Assembly (NCBI GenBank): GCA_003135475.1
Contig: PLBW01000099.1
Location: forward strand, 1-57,953
DNA length: 57,953 nt
Direction of reading: 5' to 3'
Origin: Acidobacteriaceae bacterium
GTDB lineage: Bacteria > Acidobacteriota > Terriglobia > Terriglobales > Acidobacteriaceae
The first letter of the stretch is position 1; every line of letters starts with the position of its first letter. Below, one piece after another: positions 1,453-9,302 of this stretch. Below the pieces are notes generated by a model that made no database searches, had not been told where the DNA came from, and was given only the letters and a program-made list of their open reading frames with translations. The translations under genes and the position numbers were made by a program.

Positions 1453-2688
1453 ATGGCCCCGGTACAGCGCACCATCTTTCACGTCGACATGGACGCCTTC
1501 TTCGTCTCGGTCGAAGAGTTGTTCGACCCCTCGCTGAAGGGCAGGGCGGTGGTGGTTGGCGGTCAGCGCCACGAGCGCGGCGTGGTGTCGGCCGCCTCCT
1601 ACGAGGCGCGCAAGTTCGGCGTCCATTCGGCCATGCCGCTGCGCACCGCCGCGAAACTGTGTCCTCATGCCATCTTCGTGGACGGACATCCCGAGCGCTA
1701 TCGCGATTATTCCGCCAAGGTTTGCCAGGTGCTGGGCCGCTTCTCTCCCAAGCTGGAGATGGTTTCCATCGACGAGGCCTACGTGGACATGACCGGTACC
1801 GGGCGTCTGCACGGTTCGCCGATGCGCGCCGCCCATGCGCTGCACGGCGCGATGAAAGCGGAGACGCAACTGAATTGCTCCATCGGAATTGGCAGCTCGC
1901 GGCTGCTGGCCAAGATCTGCTCCGACCAGGCCAAGCCCAATGGCGTGCTGTGGATTGTGCCGGGCGGGGAAGCGCAATTCCTGGCGCCGTTGGATGTGCG
2001 CAAGATTCCGGGCGTTGGCAAGGTCATGGAGAAGCGGCTGCTCCAACAGGGCATCCAGAAGATTGGCGATCTCGCCCGGCATGAGGAACGCTGGCTGGAG
2101 GCGAACTTTGGCGCGCTGGGCGTGGCGCTGGCCGGCAAGGCCCGCGGCTTGGATGCCGGCGCCTGGTTCGACAGCGATATTGGCGAGGACGACGGGCCCC
2201 GCTCCATCAGCCACGAGCACACCTACTCCGTCGATACCAACGACGCGCAAGCCTTGGAAGCGACCCTGGCGCGGCTGTCGGAGATGGTGTGCCGCCGTTT
2301 GCGCGAACAGAAGCTGCACGCCCGCACTCTGCAATTGAAGCTGCGCTATTCCGATTTCCGCACGCTCACGCGGGCCCACACTCTGGAGCAGCCGAGCTCG
2401 GTGGATTCGGAGGTGCTGGCCACCGTCCGTGAACTTTTCCGGACAAACTGGAATGGCGGCGGGGTCCGGCTGCTCGGAGTCTGCGCGTCGCATTTTGCAG
2501 CCGAGAGTGAGCAGCTCAGCCTGCAAGGCAGGAGCACTCATGAAAAGTGGAACCAGGCGCTCTCCGCCGCCGACCGGCTGCGCGAGAAGTTCGGAGAGCA
2601 TGCCGTCTCCATGGCGACCGGCATGAAGGCGCGCTTCCGCGAACGCACGCACGAGAACCCGGCCGGGTTACCGGGGAAAAAGAAGTGA
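1453..2688 (+). CDS. dinB: DNA polymerase IV (Y-family translesion polymerase)
   Basis: About 411 residues. The catalytic carboxylates of Y-family polymerases are visible in FHVDMDAFFVSVEEL near the N-terminus and in SIDEAYVDMT. The palm/thumb signature GIGSSRLLAKICSDQAKPNG and the helix-hairpin-helix part (IPGVGKVMEKRL) follow, then the little-finger domain. It performs low-fidelity synthesis past damaged bases in the cytoplasm. I start it at ATG 1453 (MAPVQRTIFHVDMD), because the upstream ATG at 1420 lies inside a heptamer repeat array and would add a non-conserved leader. No LexA-type operator is obvious. The hydrogenase-protease gene follows closely in the same direction. Confidence 0.95.
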   Translation: MAPVQRTIFHVDMDAFFVSVEELFDPSLKGRAVVVGGQRHERGVVSAASYEARKFGVHSAMPLRTAAKLCPHAIFVDGHPERYRDYSAKVCQVLGRFSPKLEMVSIDEAYVDMTGTGRLHGSPMRAAHALHGAMKAETQLNCSIGIGSSRLLAKICSDQAKPNGVLWIVPGGEAQFLAPLDVRKIPGVGKVMEKRLLQQGIQKIGDLARHEERWLEANFGALGVALAGKARGLDAGAWFDSDIGEDDGPRSISHEHTYSVDTNDAQALEATLARLSEMVCRRLREQKLHARTLQLKLRYSDFRTLTRAHTLEQPSSVDSEVLATVRELFRTNWNGGGVRLLGVCASHFAAESEQLSLQGRSTHEKWNQALSAADRLREKFGEHAVSMATGMKARFRERTHENPAGLPGKKK

Positions 2689-2693
2689 ATGCC

Positions 2694-3299
2694 ATGGTAT
2701 TTCGGTGCATCACGGCGGATGGTGAGGCGTCTCACATCCTTCCTCGCGAGAAAGGATTATGCCTGTTAATGCGAAAAGGCCAGGCCAGCGCGCCACTGCC
2801 TGGAGAGGACGAAGTGCCCGGAACCCTGATTATCGGCTATGGAAATCCTATGCGCGGAGATGACGCCATCGGCTGTCATGCCGCGCGCGCCTTGGAACAG
2901 CATTTCTGGAACGATCCGGACGTGGAAGTGATCGCCGCCCAGCAGCTCACCCCGGAGATGGTGGACGACATATTGCAGCGGGACTTCGTGCTGTTTCTGG
3001 ACGCCTCCTTCGGGGAGTCGCCCGGAACCATCCTGCGGACCACCGTTTCGCCAGAACCTGGCCCCGGCAGCTTGACTCACCACCTCAATCCGTCCTCGCT
3101 GCTCACCGCTGCCGAACAGCTTTACGGCGACGCTCCTTTTGCCATGAGAATCACCATGGCGGGATGGTCGTTCGATCTCGGCCAGAAGATGTCGCAAATT
3201 GCCACCCGTCGCCTGCCCGACTTCATTCGCCTGGCGCAAGAGGCGGTCGAAGCCCATCGCCACAGGCCGCAAGCTCGATCTTCGGTGGGACTGAAATAG
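2694..3299 (+). CDS. HycI/HoxW-like hydrogenase maturation protease (orphan)
   Basis: The segment TLIIGYGNPMRGDDAIGCHAA is the N-terminal signature of nickel-dependent endopeptidases that remove the C-terminal tail of the [NiFe]-hydrogenase large subunit; its Asp and Glu/His residues bind the metal. The SFGESPG and HHLNPSSLL segments fit the rest of the fold. Start sites are ambiguous: ATG 2694 (201 residues), ATG 2769, or GTG 2814, which follows GAGAGGAC and puts the signature at the extreme N-terminus as usual in the family. The last may be correct. No hydrogenase structural genes are in the window, so the substrate must be encoded elsewhere. It lies five bases after dinB. Confidence 0.85.
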   Translation: MVFRCITADGEASHILPREKGLCLLMRKGQASAPLPGEDEVPGTLIIGYGNPMRGDDAIGCHAARALEQHFWNDPDVEVIAAQQLTPEMVDDILQRDFVLFLDASFGESPGTILRTTVSPEPGPGSLTHHLNPSSLLTAAEQLYGDAPFAMRITMAGWSFDLGQKMSQIATRRLPDFIRLAQEAVEAHRHRPQARSSVGLK

Positions 3300-5890: not shown

Positions 5891-6289
5891 TTACCACGTG
5901 TTATACGCGGTGCCTTCGCTGGAGGTTTGATCGCTGCCGCTATGAACGTCGATAATCCCGGGCTCGGTCTGATCGGGAGACATAATGCTCTCGTCGGTGA
6001 CCGGCACCCAACTATCGCGTGAGTTGGTGAAGGGGTCCTTGGGGAGCTGCTTAAGATATTTGGCATCCACCAGGTCCTCCAAGGATTGCGGGGCCTTTTG
6101 CTTGTCAAGCGTGTACTGGTCGATCAGCGACCTCATGGTGTAGAGATCGTCGCGCAACGCAGTCTCTTTGGCGTGCAGAATGGAAGACGAATAATTCGGG
6201 ATGGCGAGCGAAAGCAGGATGACGATGATGCTGATCACCACCATCAACTCAATCAAAGTAAAGCCGCGTTGTCGCCAGCGCCGGGTCAT
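5891..6289 (-). CDS. Type II secretion pseudopilin, GspG-like
   Basis: A 132-residue prepilin. The leader MTRRWRQRG is cut before FTLIELMVVISIIVILLS, which gives an N-methylated Phe and the conserved Glu at mature position 5. A long hydrophobic helix follows, then a GspG-like C-terminal domain (DLYTMRSLIDQY, then LPKDPFTN). Such subunits form the short periplasmic pseudopilus that pushes substrates through the secretin. It is the last gene of a leftward cluster and starts 17 bases after the second pseudopilin gene. No prepilin peptidase, ATPase or platform protein is in the window. Confidence 0.9.
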   Translation of the reverse strand: MTRRWRQRGFTLIELMVVISIIVILLSLAIPNYSSSILHAKETALRDDLYTMRSLIDQYTLDKQKAPQSLEDLVDAKYLKQLPKDPFTNSRDSWVPVTDESIMSPDQTEPGIIDVHSGSDQTSSEGTAYNTW

Positions 6290-6306: not shown

Positions 6307-6798
6307 TTACCACGTCTTGTACTTGGTGCCGTCCAAGGCAGTGCCTTCGGATTTGGTGTAAACGTCAAAAACGCTCTGCCCGCCCCAGGAATCCGAATCG
6401 GGATCGTCCTGCATCGAGCGCAAGCCCCATTCATCCTTGCCGGTCATGGGATCCACCGGGATGTGCCGCAGGAAACGGATCTTCTTGCCATTGGAGTCCA
6501 CGCCCTTCACCAGGGTGTCGAGATCGGGAGGATATCCCTGGCTGTCCAGCTTGGTCTGGAATGCGCCCCGATCGGCGGCGTCCTTGTAGCGATCAATGGC
6601 ATCGCGCATCTCCCACAGATCGCGGCGCAAATTGCGCTCTTTGTTGCGTTGAATGGCGACCCGCAGCACGGGAGTGGCGACCGCGGTCAGGACCATCAGG
6701 ATGGTCATCGCCACGATCAACTCGACCAGGGTGAAACCGTCCCTGCGGACCGCCCGAGAGGCTGAGGACTGCGAATGAACTGGTGCAAATCCAGGCAC
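6307..6798 (-). CDS. Type II secretion pseudopilin, GspG-like (second copy)
   Basis: The prepilin motif is RRDG before FTLVELIVAMTILMVL, with the conserved Glu 5. A GspG-type domain follows (RDLWEMRDAIDRYKDAAD, LRHIPVDPMTGKDEWG). The open frame extends to ATG 6888, but that gives an unusually long 51-residue leader. GTG 6798 has GAGAGAAG just upstream and yields a normal leader of about 21 residues, so I prefer it. Both pseudopilins end in a similar KTW/NTW motif, suggesting tandem duplication. It is encoded between the secretin and the other pseudopilin on the same strand and is probably co-transcribed. Confidence 0.88.
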   Translation of the reverse strand: MPGFAPVHSQSSASRAVRRDGFTLVELIVAMTILMVLTAVATPVLRVAIQRNKERNLRRDLWEMRDAIDRYKDAADRGAFQTKLDSQGYPPDLDTLVKGVDSNGKKIRFLRHIPVDPMTGKDEWGLRSMQDDPDSDSWGGQSVFDVYTKSEGTALDGTKYKTW

Positions 6799-6965
6799 AC
6801 TGCTTCTCTCAGCAGCCAAACCGCAACTGGAAAGATTAAGGGGCACCGCTCTTAGTTTAGTCCTTCCCGGGACTGACTTCGCAATCAACCGGCTATATCG
6901 TCGCTGGCGTACGCAGGCTCGCGGCGATGACCGCGCCCGGGGCTGCTACCGGTTAGACGCTGCCG

Positions 6966-9302
6966 CTAATGAACGGTCACGATGGCCTGAGAGCCGCTGG
7001 CGGGGACGTTTTGCATGCTTGCGTTCTTCACTCCCGCCCGGTTGACGCTCAAGGTTGCCTGTCCTGGAGCTTTCGCCTGGAAGGTGATCGTAAACACCGC
7101 TCCGTCGCCGCTAACGCCGGCGCTCCCCGGGGGACGTGAGGCGGTGAGTTGCAGAATGCCGGCCATGCTGTCATCGCGGTTGACCAGCGCGACGGTCTGC
7201 CCGTCCTGCGCCAGCAGCGTTCCATTGGAGACGTTCAGCACCTGCAAAACCCGTGGGTTGTAGAGAATCTGCACCGGGACCGAATACACATTCTGCGCGC
7301 CGGTCAGGTTCACGTTCACGGTGAAGGTGGAACCCACCGCCTGGTCCAGCATGGGCGGGTCAAAGCTCACGATCGCACTGCCCGGAGGGGCCGCTGCGAT
7401 GGAAGGCTGGGTGCCAGTGGCTGGGGTCGAGCCGGCCTGCGGCTGCGGTGGATTGGCTTGTGCTCCCTGCGGATTGCCAGCCGGGCCCGAGGGTTGCGTG
7501 CTGCGCGGTTGCTGGTCGGGCGCCTGGTTCATGCCGTGATGCAGGGATATGGTGTTGGCGGTGCCAACGTCAATTGCCTTGACGTTGCTATCGTTCAAAT
7601 CCTGGGCACGCACAATATGCGGAATCAGGATGAAAACGATTTCGTTGTCGTTATTCTGTTTGGTCTCCTCGGCGAACAGATATTTGAAGAGCGGAATGGA
7701 CGCCAAGCCTGGAATTCCCGATAGCGACTTGGTCTGCGTGGATTCAAGGATGCCGCCCATGATGTTCACTTCGCCTTCCCGCAGGCGAATTTCCTGCTCG
7801 ATCTTGCGCTGCCCGATCACCGGCTGCTGAATGCCGCCGATGTTCTGGTAGGAGTCAACCGCCGAGATATCCATGGTGAGTTTCAGGGTTACCTCGTCGA
7901 GCCCGTGCACGTGCGGTGTGATGTCGATATTTACGCCGACATCAATGTAGTTAAATTGAGTGTTGACCAACGGGTTGATGCCGACGCCGCCGATACCGGG
8001 CTGGAACGAACCGGTGGCCACGGGTACCCGCTCGCCGATCTTCAACGAAGCCTTCTGGCCATCCGCGGCGCGGATTTGTGGCTGTTGGATAAGCTTGCTA
8101 CTGCTATCGCTCATCAGGAAATTCGCCGTAGCCGATGGGATCGTCACCTCGAAATTGGTGGCGTTAAGGTGGGCCAAACTATTCAGGTTGATGCCGCCCG
8201 TATTGCCGGTGGTGGTAGTGCCCGTGCCGCCATTGCCGGCATTGCCGTTCACGGTAGTGGTACTGGTGGTTGTGTTGTTGTCCTGCAACTGTACGGTGAC
8301 ACTACCGGGCGGTTGGATGCCGAGATTGCGCATCTTGTTGCGGGTGACTTGCATGATCGCAACTTCCACCACTACCTCGGGCCGACCTTTGTCGAGATCA
8401 TTGATCAGCTTCTCGGCCATCGCAATCTGATCGGGCGTCCCCCGCACCACGATTGCCTGCTGCGAAGGAAACTGTTGCAGGCGCTGGGTATCGAGCAAAG
8501 TTCGCAGAATATTAACCAGGTCCTGCAATTCGTTGGGCTGCGAGAGATTCGTCAGGTAAAAAGTGCGGATGACGCTCTGCTCCAGTTCCTTACGCTTGGC
8601 GGGCGTGTCCGCGGCAACGAAAATGGTATTCGGAGTGACCGGCCGCCAGAAAGTCTTTGATTCCAGCGCCGTAATTTCCAGCGCTTCTTCCAGGGTGACC
8701 CCGTTCAGGTCCACGCGAATGCGTTTCGAAGTGTAATCAGGATCGAACAACACGTTGACGCCCGCCAATTTGCCGATGGTTTCGTAAACCGTCTTCCCGT
8801 CTTCGGTCAGCTTTAAGGTGATGGGCGTCTGGGAAATGGGACTCAGCTCAACCGGTCCGGCGGCTTCCTCCATGCGCTTGGTCAGTCCCGATTCGGTCGT
8901 AGGCGCCGGAGGAGCAGGGTTCAGGCTCTTTTGGAGAAGCAAGCGTGTCTTGGTGGCTCCCTGTTGTGCTATGAAACTGGACGGATCGATGGCAAGCGCC
9001 TGCTCGAAATCGGTCAACCCCTCCTGAAGTTTCCCGGCCTTGAGCAGAATCTCGCCTTGATGAACATAGGACGCCGATGCCAGGAAGCGGACATACTCGA
9101 AGGCGGCACGATAGGTCAGGTCGGCGGGCTTGAGCTGGTAGGCCTGATGGTAAAACTCGTAGGCCGCAATGTAATCCTGCCGAACTTCGGCGTCTTTGCC
9201 CTTTTGAAACAAGACCTTAGCTGCCTTGTCGTTGGAGGCGAGTGCGGGCAGAACGGCGCCGATCAGGAGCACCGCCAGAACGCGGGTAAACCGTTTCATC
9301 AA
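6966..9302 (-). CDS. Secretin with N-terminal TPRs and C-terminal cohesin domain
   Basis: A 778-residue outer-membrane channel subunit of GspD/PilQ type. It has a signal peptide (LAVLLIGAVLPALAS), TPR-like helices at about 30-130, an STN/secretin short domain at about 160-230 (ITLKLTEDGKTVYE), an N1-like domain with VVRGTPDQIAMAEKLI at about 285, and a Ser/Thr/Asn/Gly-rich stretch at about 345-375. The secretin core follows at about 390-570, including VPVATGSFQPG and LREGEVNIMGGILE. A Pro/Gln-rich linker leads to a cohesin-like beta domain at about 640-778 (VGSTFTVNVNLTGAQNVYSVPVQILYNP split across strands). The cohesin fusion is not found in classical T2SS or T4P secretins. It leads the three-gene leftward cluster. 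Confidence 0.92.
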   Translation of the reverse strand: MMKRFTRVLAVLLIGAVLPALASNDKAAKVLFQKGKDAEVRQDYIAAYEFYHQAYQLKPADLTYRAAFEYVRFLASASYVHQGEILLKAGKLQEGLTDFEQALAIDPSSFIAQQGATKTRLLLQKSLNPAPPAPTTESGLTKRMEEAAGPVELSPISQTPITLKLTEDGKTVYETIGKLAGVNVLFDPDYTSKRIRVDLNGVTLEEALEITALESKTFWRPVTPNTIFVAADTPAKRKELEQSVIRTFYLTNLSQPNELQDLVNILRTLLDTQRLQQFPSQQAIVVRGTPDQIAMAEKLINDLDKGRPEVVVEVAIMQVTRNKMRNLGIQPPGSVTVQLQDNNTTTSTTTVNGNAGNGGTGTTTTGNTGGINLNSLAHLNATNFEVTIPSATANFLMSDSSSKLIQQPQIRAADGQKASLKIGERVPVATGSFQPGIGGVGINPLVNTQFNYIDVGVNIDITPHVHGLDEVTLKLTMDISAVDSYQNIGGIQQPVIGQRKIEQEIRLREGEVNIMGGILESTQTKSLSGIPGLASIPLFKYLFAEETKQNNDNEIVFILIPHIVRAQDLNDSNVKAIDVGTANTISLHHGMNQAPDQQPRSTQPSGPAGNPQGAQANPPQPQAGSTPATGTQPSIAAAPPGSAIVSFDPPMLDQAVGSTFTVNVNLTGAQNVYSVPVQILYNPRVLQVLNVSNGTLLAQDGQTVALVNRDDSMAGILQLTASRPPGSAGVSGDGAVFTITFQAKAPGQATLSVNRAGVKNASMQNVPASGSQAIVTVH

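Follow-up and report, generated by a model that had tools for sequence, protein, structure and literature searches.

What does a cohesin domain do at the end of a secretin? Little is understood about cargo recognition by type II machines, whose cargo is folded, or about the way in which secretins are held in place. The question is raised here by a gene on contig PLBW01000099.1 of an Acidobacteriaceae bacterium (assembly GCA_003135475.1), analysed over a stretch of 57,953 nucleotides that is called the window below. The initial annotation of this gene read its product as a secretin fused to a C-terminal cohesin and suggested that the fused domain could be a receptor or plug for dockerin-tagged cargo in a variant of type II secretion.

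Gene, domains and cohesin fold

The gene lies on the minus strand at 6966-9302, and its coordinates as a single ORF of 778 residues had been placed correctly. The minus strand is open throughout this interval, and the plus strand has internal stops. The ORF starts with TTG, and since the codon directly after it is ATG, the protein is probably 777 aa long. The proposed order of signal peptide, TPR, secretin and cohesin in one protein was confirmed by Pfam, with the signal peptide recognised by eye. The features listed next are all encoded on that same strand, the minus strand. At residues 1-23 (9234-9302), the signal sequence of the N-terminus has no lipobox Cys in the window's lineage, as judged by eye and from the alignment. 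The TPR region (residues 24-127, 8922-9233) was identified by the Pfam families TPR_2 and TPR_1, with TPR_2 at residues 79-108, and by helices in the full-length model. A secretin N0/STN-like region at residues about 160-232 (8607-8825) was placed by the STN position in homologues and by strands and helices of the model, with no Pfam match in the window protein. Secretin_N covers residues 260-308 (8379-8525; 29.4 bits, cut-off 28.2) and the secretin core residues 396-565 (7608-8117; 125 bits, cut-off 27.5). A linker of 77 aa rich in Pro, Ala, Gly and Gln (residues 567-643, 7374-7604) leads to the C-terminal cohesin (residues 640-778, 6969-7385), which was matched by PF00963 at residues 653-755 with 49.9 bits against a cut-off of 24.1 (E 4.8e-13).

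The best NCBIfam match of the secretin was the T2SS GspD family (TIGR02517) with 143.8 bits, under the equivalog cut-off of 351.35; for PilQ it scored 113.2 and did not reach the cut-off of 284.35. Its best PDB sequence matches were likewise T2SS GspD (E 2.4e-19). Downstream of the secretin gene and in the same direction are two genes for prepilin-like proteins with N_methyl matches, both conserved neighbours of the secretin. PPA (6307-6888, minus strand) adjoins it, is weakly GspG-like and probably has its true start inside the ORF, and PPB (5891-6289, minus strand) follows. Neither protein reached the equivalog cut-off of 88.85 for the major pseudopilin GspG, with 48.9 bits for PPB and 29.5 bits for the other. 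Elsewhere in the window, an ORF at 2547-3299 (plus strand), directly after a gene that by eye encodes a DinB-like polymerase, has a second half resembling a hydrogenase maturation protease by eye (GNPMRGDDAIG) and gave no Pfam match at E 1e-5.

The cohesin fold expected from the initial annotation was recovered by structure prediction. Residues 636-778 were modelled by AF2 with 9 sequences (mean pLDDT 86.6, pTM 0.79), and all of the 50 PDB matches listed by Foldseek for this model were cohesins or cohesin complexes, the best being 6kgf_C (E 1.4e-9, TM 0.79). Structure comparison gave Z 17.1 and rmsd 2.4 over 139 aligned residues for the CipA cohesin 1aoh_B, and Z 16.0 for 2xdh, an archaeal cohesin from outside cellulosomes. 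Cohesins were retrieved by sequence as well, with a profile built from 33 related C-terminal domains (E 8.9e-13). The full-length AF2 model was poor (mean pLDDT 54.9) and was used for no placement of the cohesin on the pore.

Throughout the homologue set the cohesin is the last domain, with at most 19 residues after it, and is preceded by a linker of 43-182 aa. Conservation of the cohesin approached that of the pore: identity was 48% for the cohesin versus 54% for the pore in 21 loci of the order, and 26% versus 36% in 18 loci outside it. The linker had 23-27% identity in these loci. The cohesin is an ancient and integral part of this secretin, carried at its C-terminus on a proline-rich tether. 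Among 24 order sequences no variation was seen at Q678, R709 and R723, and D710 is conserved in 92%; all four residues lie on strands 3, 5 and 6 of the cohesin model. In cellulosomal cohesins these strands presumably belong to the side that binds dockerin.

Distribution of the fusion and the split secretion cluster

The distribution of the domain was surveyed in the order and the phylum with a first-look filter (E 0.001). Of 249 order genomes, 243 gave a PF00963 match, 242 of them over the cut-off, and exactly one cohesin was present in 231 of the 243 positive genomes. The own genome of the window (3.89 Mb, 233 contigs, 82% complete) likewise has one cohesin, located in the secretin. At every order locus checked (30/30, comprising 29 fetched loci and the window) the cohesin lay within the secretin ORF. 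The secretin-cohesin fusion is certain; it is more than a chance event, because all 29 further loci of the order have it in one ORF, and it is old. Six order genomes without a cohesin match were examined. G121 and G218 have only N-terminal secretin fragments, for which contig breaks are the likely explanation, G009 has a full-length secretin with a 31% C-terminal match, and for G138, G230 and G017, in which only distant secretins were found, a loss is possible.

A cohesin match was obtained in 138 of the 247 phylum genomes sampled, and 109 had none. Among the 29 best-scoring phylum loci, 13 of which came from the window's own order, the cohesin was in a secretin in 20 and elsewhere in 9. At the loci outside the order it was in a secretin in 7/16 and in other proteins in 9/16, so cohesins do other jobs in the phylum. 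No description of a secretin-cohesin fusion was found in the open-access literature searched, a search too limited to call the fusion unpublished. Public annotation already shows this domain architecture, and we therefore regard the system as a variant of type II secretion and not as a new system.

The type-II-secretion-like setting was borne out by the phylum, where the secretin clusters with GspE and GspF homologues. Twenty phylum neighbourhoods were picked for long ORFs and family spread, including L112 and L122 from the window's class or order. In 15 of the 20, GspF and GspE genes accompany the cohesin-secretin within one stretch. Of the others, L123 has GspE at the contig edge, L121 has PilP at the contig edge, L116 has only PilM, and L112 and L122 have smpB instead of GspF and GspE. 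PPA- and PPB-like genes were found before or after the secretin, again in 15/20 loci. In one phylum homologue the PilM_2 match was over its cut-off, with 36.5, and the PilN match fell just short of its own, with 20.7 against 22.8; PilO and PilP were identified by position and similarity only.

The ATPase and platform genes had been thought to be missing. None stands beside the secretin, but GspE and GspF family genes were found by Pfam matches on contig C29 of the same genome. This contig carries GspF-GspE-PilM-PilN-PilO-PilP-like genes, interrupted by scaffold Ns and reaching near the contig end. The F protein scored 307.9 for GspF, under the cut-off of 424. In the window's family, smpB, secretin, PPA and PPB were together in 20/20 loci, and none of these 20 loci had GspF or GspE in 20 kb. 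Loci L136 and L004, both 174,824 long, come from one contig. Conversely, 14 second loci of the order had GspF, GspE, PilM and PilP together in 14/14 and PilN in 13/14, and the secretin was in none of them. Where both halves were on one contig (12/12 cases), they were 494-2590 kb apart. An ancestral cluster was thus split in the lineage to which the window belongs, and one half of it, beside smpB, is what the window contains; the genes for GspE, GspF and PilM to PilP are on another contig because the cluster is split in the order. A GspF ortholog was matched in 120/120 order genomes (E 1e-30), in 119 of them at 46% identity at least, and genome G068 has only a paralog of 34% identity. The cohesin-secretin is a near-universal part of the order's T2SS-like machine.

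Neighbour clustering found no near-universal neighbours of the secretin beyond the machine genes, smpB and the adjoining aminopeptidase gene. A secretin-N1-like protein and Ig-like lipoproteins, each seen in 4 loci, made no convincing conserved partners. Directly upstream of GspF on contig C29 (L028:4327-8143), a PF04185 phosphoesterase-family protein and a DUF885 protein are encoded, as also in the same-genus locus L164; both proteins are possible substrates. In L164 two small ORFs right after the PilP-like gene (L164:10761-11701) resemble, by eye, a pair of antitoxin and RES-type toxin genes. The own genome carries further genes of these families. T2SSE and T2SSF genes on contigs C50 and C131 look Tad-like by arrangement, the short contig C90 carries a broken T2SSE-family gene, and two further secretins are on contigs C50 and C85. 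The secretin on C85 (L029:2406-4556, plus strand) is a second TPR-secretin without cohesin, 28% identical to that of the window, with a Big_2 Ig-like protein after it (L029:4699-5490); paralogs similar to it are also present in relatives.

Known relatives and the membrane side

The GspD/PulD secretins of type II systems (TIGR02517; 6hcg, 5wln), to which the best NCBIfam and PDB matches belong, share Secretin_N and the core with the window protein. In contrast to them, the window secretin is under the equivalog cut-off, has an N-terminal TPR and carries a cohesin instead of the S-domain, and the partners of its machine are PilM-, PilN-, PilO- and PilP-like. The Geobacter Pul/Oxp system is a second T2SS that is likewise compact and has two or three pseudopilins. 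This 'atypical' type II system is described, in PMC3543383 with reference to Mehta 2006, as required for secreting the multicopper oxidase OmpB. A related secretin with a proline-rich tail and without cohesin is encoded on the megaplasmid of Cupriavidus metallidurans (L193:12375-16005). Its neighbour genes give a hint that this may be the same machine type as Geobacter Pul/Oxp. Adjoining this secretin are a large cadherin/Ig-like protein and two ORFs that overlap each other and carry multicopper-oxidase domains; they are candidate substrates of this machine type.

Proteins with Secretin and Cohesin domains were also found on plasmids of Burkholderiales, in Janthinobacterium lividum (NZ_CP139977) and Eleftheria terrae (NZ_CP106952), where they adjoin prepilin-type, GspF and GspE genes in a single cluster. 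Both are annotated by NCBI as 'cohesin domain-containing protein' and are about 27% and 25% identical, respectively, to the window protein over the matched parts. Paraburkholderia caribensis has a Secretin and Cohesin protein as well. The cellulosomal and non-cellulosomal cohesins 1aoh and 2xdh have the same fold as the window's cohesin, which unlike them is present in one copy, is fused to an outer-membrane pore and rarely occurs with dockerins.

The phylum secretins L104-L123 were compared with L124-L143 of the window's lineage for an N-terminal lipobox. By eye on the alignment, a lipobox Cys was present in 17/20 phylum secretins, and a regular expression found it in 11/20. The same expression found it in 0/24 sequences of the window's lineage; six order sequences do have a Cys in the hydrophobic stretch, and L137 is ambiguous. 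Judged from these N-termini, most phylum relatives look like liposecretins. They share the lipobox with the liposecretin HxcQ, whereas the window's lineage, the same one whose cluster is split, has lost it. Cohesin and lipobox coexist in phylum secretins, so the cohesin did not arise as a lipobox substitute.

The membrane side of the cohesin can be approached by analogy. In PulD the S-domain lies just after the secretin domain and binds pilotin lipoproteins on the periplasmic side, as stated in PMC3542185. Because known T2SS secretins end in such a pilotin-binding domain, the tether would start on the periplasmic side, and a surface position of the cohesin is unlikely for the same reason. PMC10550240 gives 15 as the usual number of secretin subunits, and the pore would therefore carry about 15 cohesins there.

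Dockerins and the role of the cohesin

The idea of dockerin-tagged cargo proved weak when the genomes were searched. In the own genome, which is incomplete, two Dockerin_1 matches were obtained at E up to 10, none over the cut-off, the better with 19.7 bits against 22.9. Dockerin_1 was over the cut-off in 16/249 order genomes, and dockerin matches were present in 89/247 phylum genomes; weak dockerins like that of the own genome (E 0.004) are not counted in these numbers. Cohesin and dockerin were not associated in the phylum, where 48 genomes had both, 90 cohesin only, 41 dockerin only and 68 neither (247 genomes, Fisher p 0.69), nor outside the window's family (47, 62, 41 and 68, respectively; p 0.49). 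Since dockerins are rare and not associated with the cohesin, classical dockerin partners are not needed. Four phylum genomes of one family (G262, G275, G285 and G304) had 13 to 25 dockerin matches each and were none of the 138 with a cohesin match; they have dockerins without recognisable cohesins. A scaffoldin with several cohesins was not found in the own genome, which has one cohesin, and the system is not a cellulosome.

The genome search was not entirely negative, since the sub-threshold module has an ortholog over the cut-off; it thus gave no clean absence of dockerin proteins, the outcome that the initial annotation had named as refuting its idea. P0002 is a protein of 492 aa on contig C176 (L033:5770-7248, minus strand) with a dockerin-like module at residues 42-94, which consists of two Ca-loop-like repeats; the rest of the protein has no family. 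Its same-genus ortholog is 79% identical and is over the Dockerin_1 cut-off with 31.7 bits. The nearest PDB sequence to the module was the xylanase dockerin of a cohesin complex, only at E 0.2. On these sequence features the dockerin-like module is convincing, and P0002 is the one concrete candidate for the proposed dockerin interaction, as a putative partner of the secretin cohesin. By eye it has an apparent N-terminal signal anchor, which would put the module in the periplasm and not on the surface.

A cargo receptor, in which exoproteins with a dockerin would be bound by the cohesin and then either passed to the pore or retained on the cell surface, agrees with the genuine cohesin fold, with the module of P0002 and its passing ortholog, and with the conserved residues on the presumed dockerin-binding strands. 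We nevertheless consider it improbable, given that dockerins pass the cut-off in so few of the order genomes against 242 for cohesin, that no cohesin-dockerin association was seen in the phylum, and that the cohesin positions conserved phylum-wide are mainly Gly and core residues. The mostly structural nature of the conserved residues would suit a passive Ig-like extension, a spacer or stabiliser without specific ligand, and cohesin-fold modules do exist outside cellulosomes, as 2xdh exemplifies. Such an extension is very improbable to us all the same, for the domain is kept in nearly all order genomes at almost the conservation of the pore while the linker varies.

The cohesin could also be a targeting or anchoring module that replaces the step of S-domain and pilotin, bringing the secretin to the outer membrane or fixing it to the wall. 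It occupies the place of the PulD S-domain as given in PMC3542185, and the order secretins, having no lipobox, need another route to the outer membrane. Coexistence of cohesin and lipobox in the phylum shows that the domain is not simply a substitute, however, and neighbour clustering found no pilotin-like gene conserved beside the secretin, so that this role appears rather unlikely.

Our preferred reading, which we rate a little better than an even chance, is a T2SS-like machine of the type IV filament kind, in which cohesins on tethers bind one fixed partner of the envelope from the periplasmic side, independently of classical dockerin-tagged cargo. The machine occurs in nearly all genomes of the order and comprises the GspE ATPase, the GspF platform, PilM-, PilN-, PilO- and PilP-like assembly proteins, two or three pseudopilins and the secretin. 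Its pseudopilus would push folded proteins from the periplasm through the ring of the secretin. Each subunit would contribute one tethered cohesin to a collar that faces the periplasm, by analogy with the known secretins, and this collar may dock a constant envelope partner, either a machine component or an anchoring lipoprotein. The docked partner would then hold or load the complex. A fixed partner fits better than many tagged enzymes because the domain is constant, single-copy and lineage-wide, without abundant tagged cargo. Against this reading stand the dockerin-like protein of the own genome, the phylum cohesins that lie outside secretins, the 109 phylum genomes without a cohesin match, and the machine of the Cupriavidus relative, in which the cohesin is dispensable, since the secretin there has a proline-rich tail and lacks the domain.

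We tentatively consider a broader and less likely possibility, a phylum-level type II variant in which the periplasmic cohesin ring would be a docking collar. Its ligand would be a partner or cargo tag specific to the machine and for the most part not a dockerin. The own-genus protein on C176 could be such a partner, giving a cohesin-dockerin bridge from the inner to the outer membrane.

The presence of a cohesin in a genome is no proof of a cellulosome, and here, in this order, the domain marks a secretin. This docking domain has a known fold and is fused to a pore in nearly all genomes of a major soil lineage; it offers an experimental handle that can be expressed alone as bait, and the nature of the ligand gripped by the tethered cohesins becomes a sharp, testable question.
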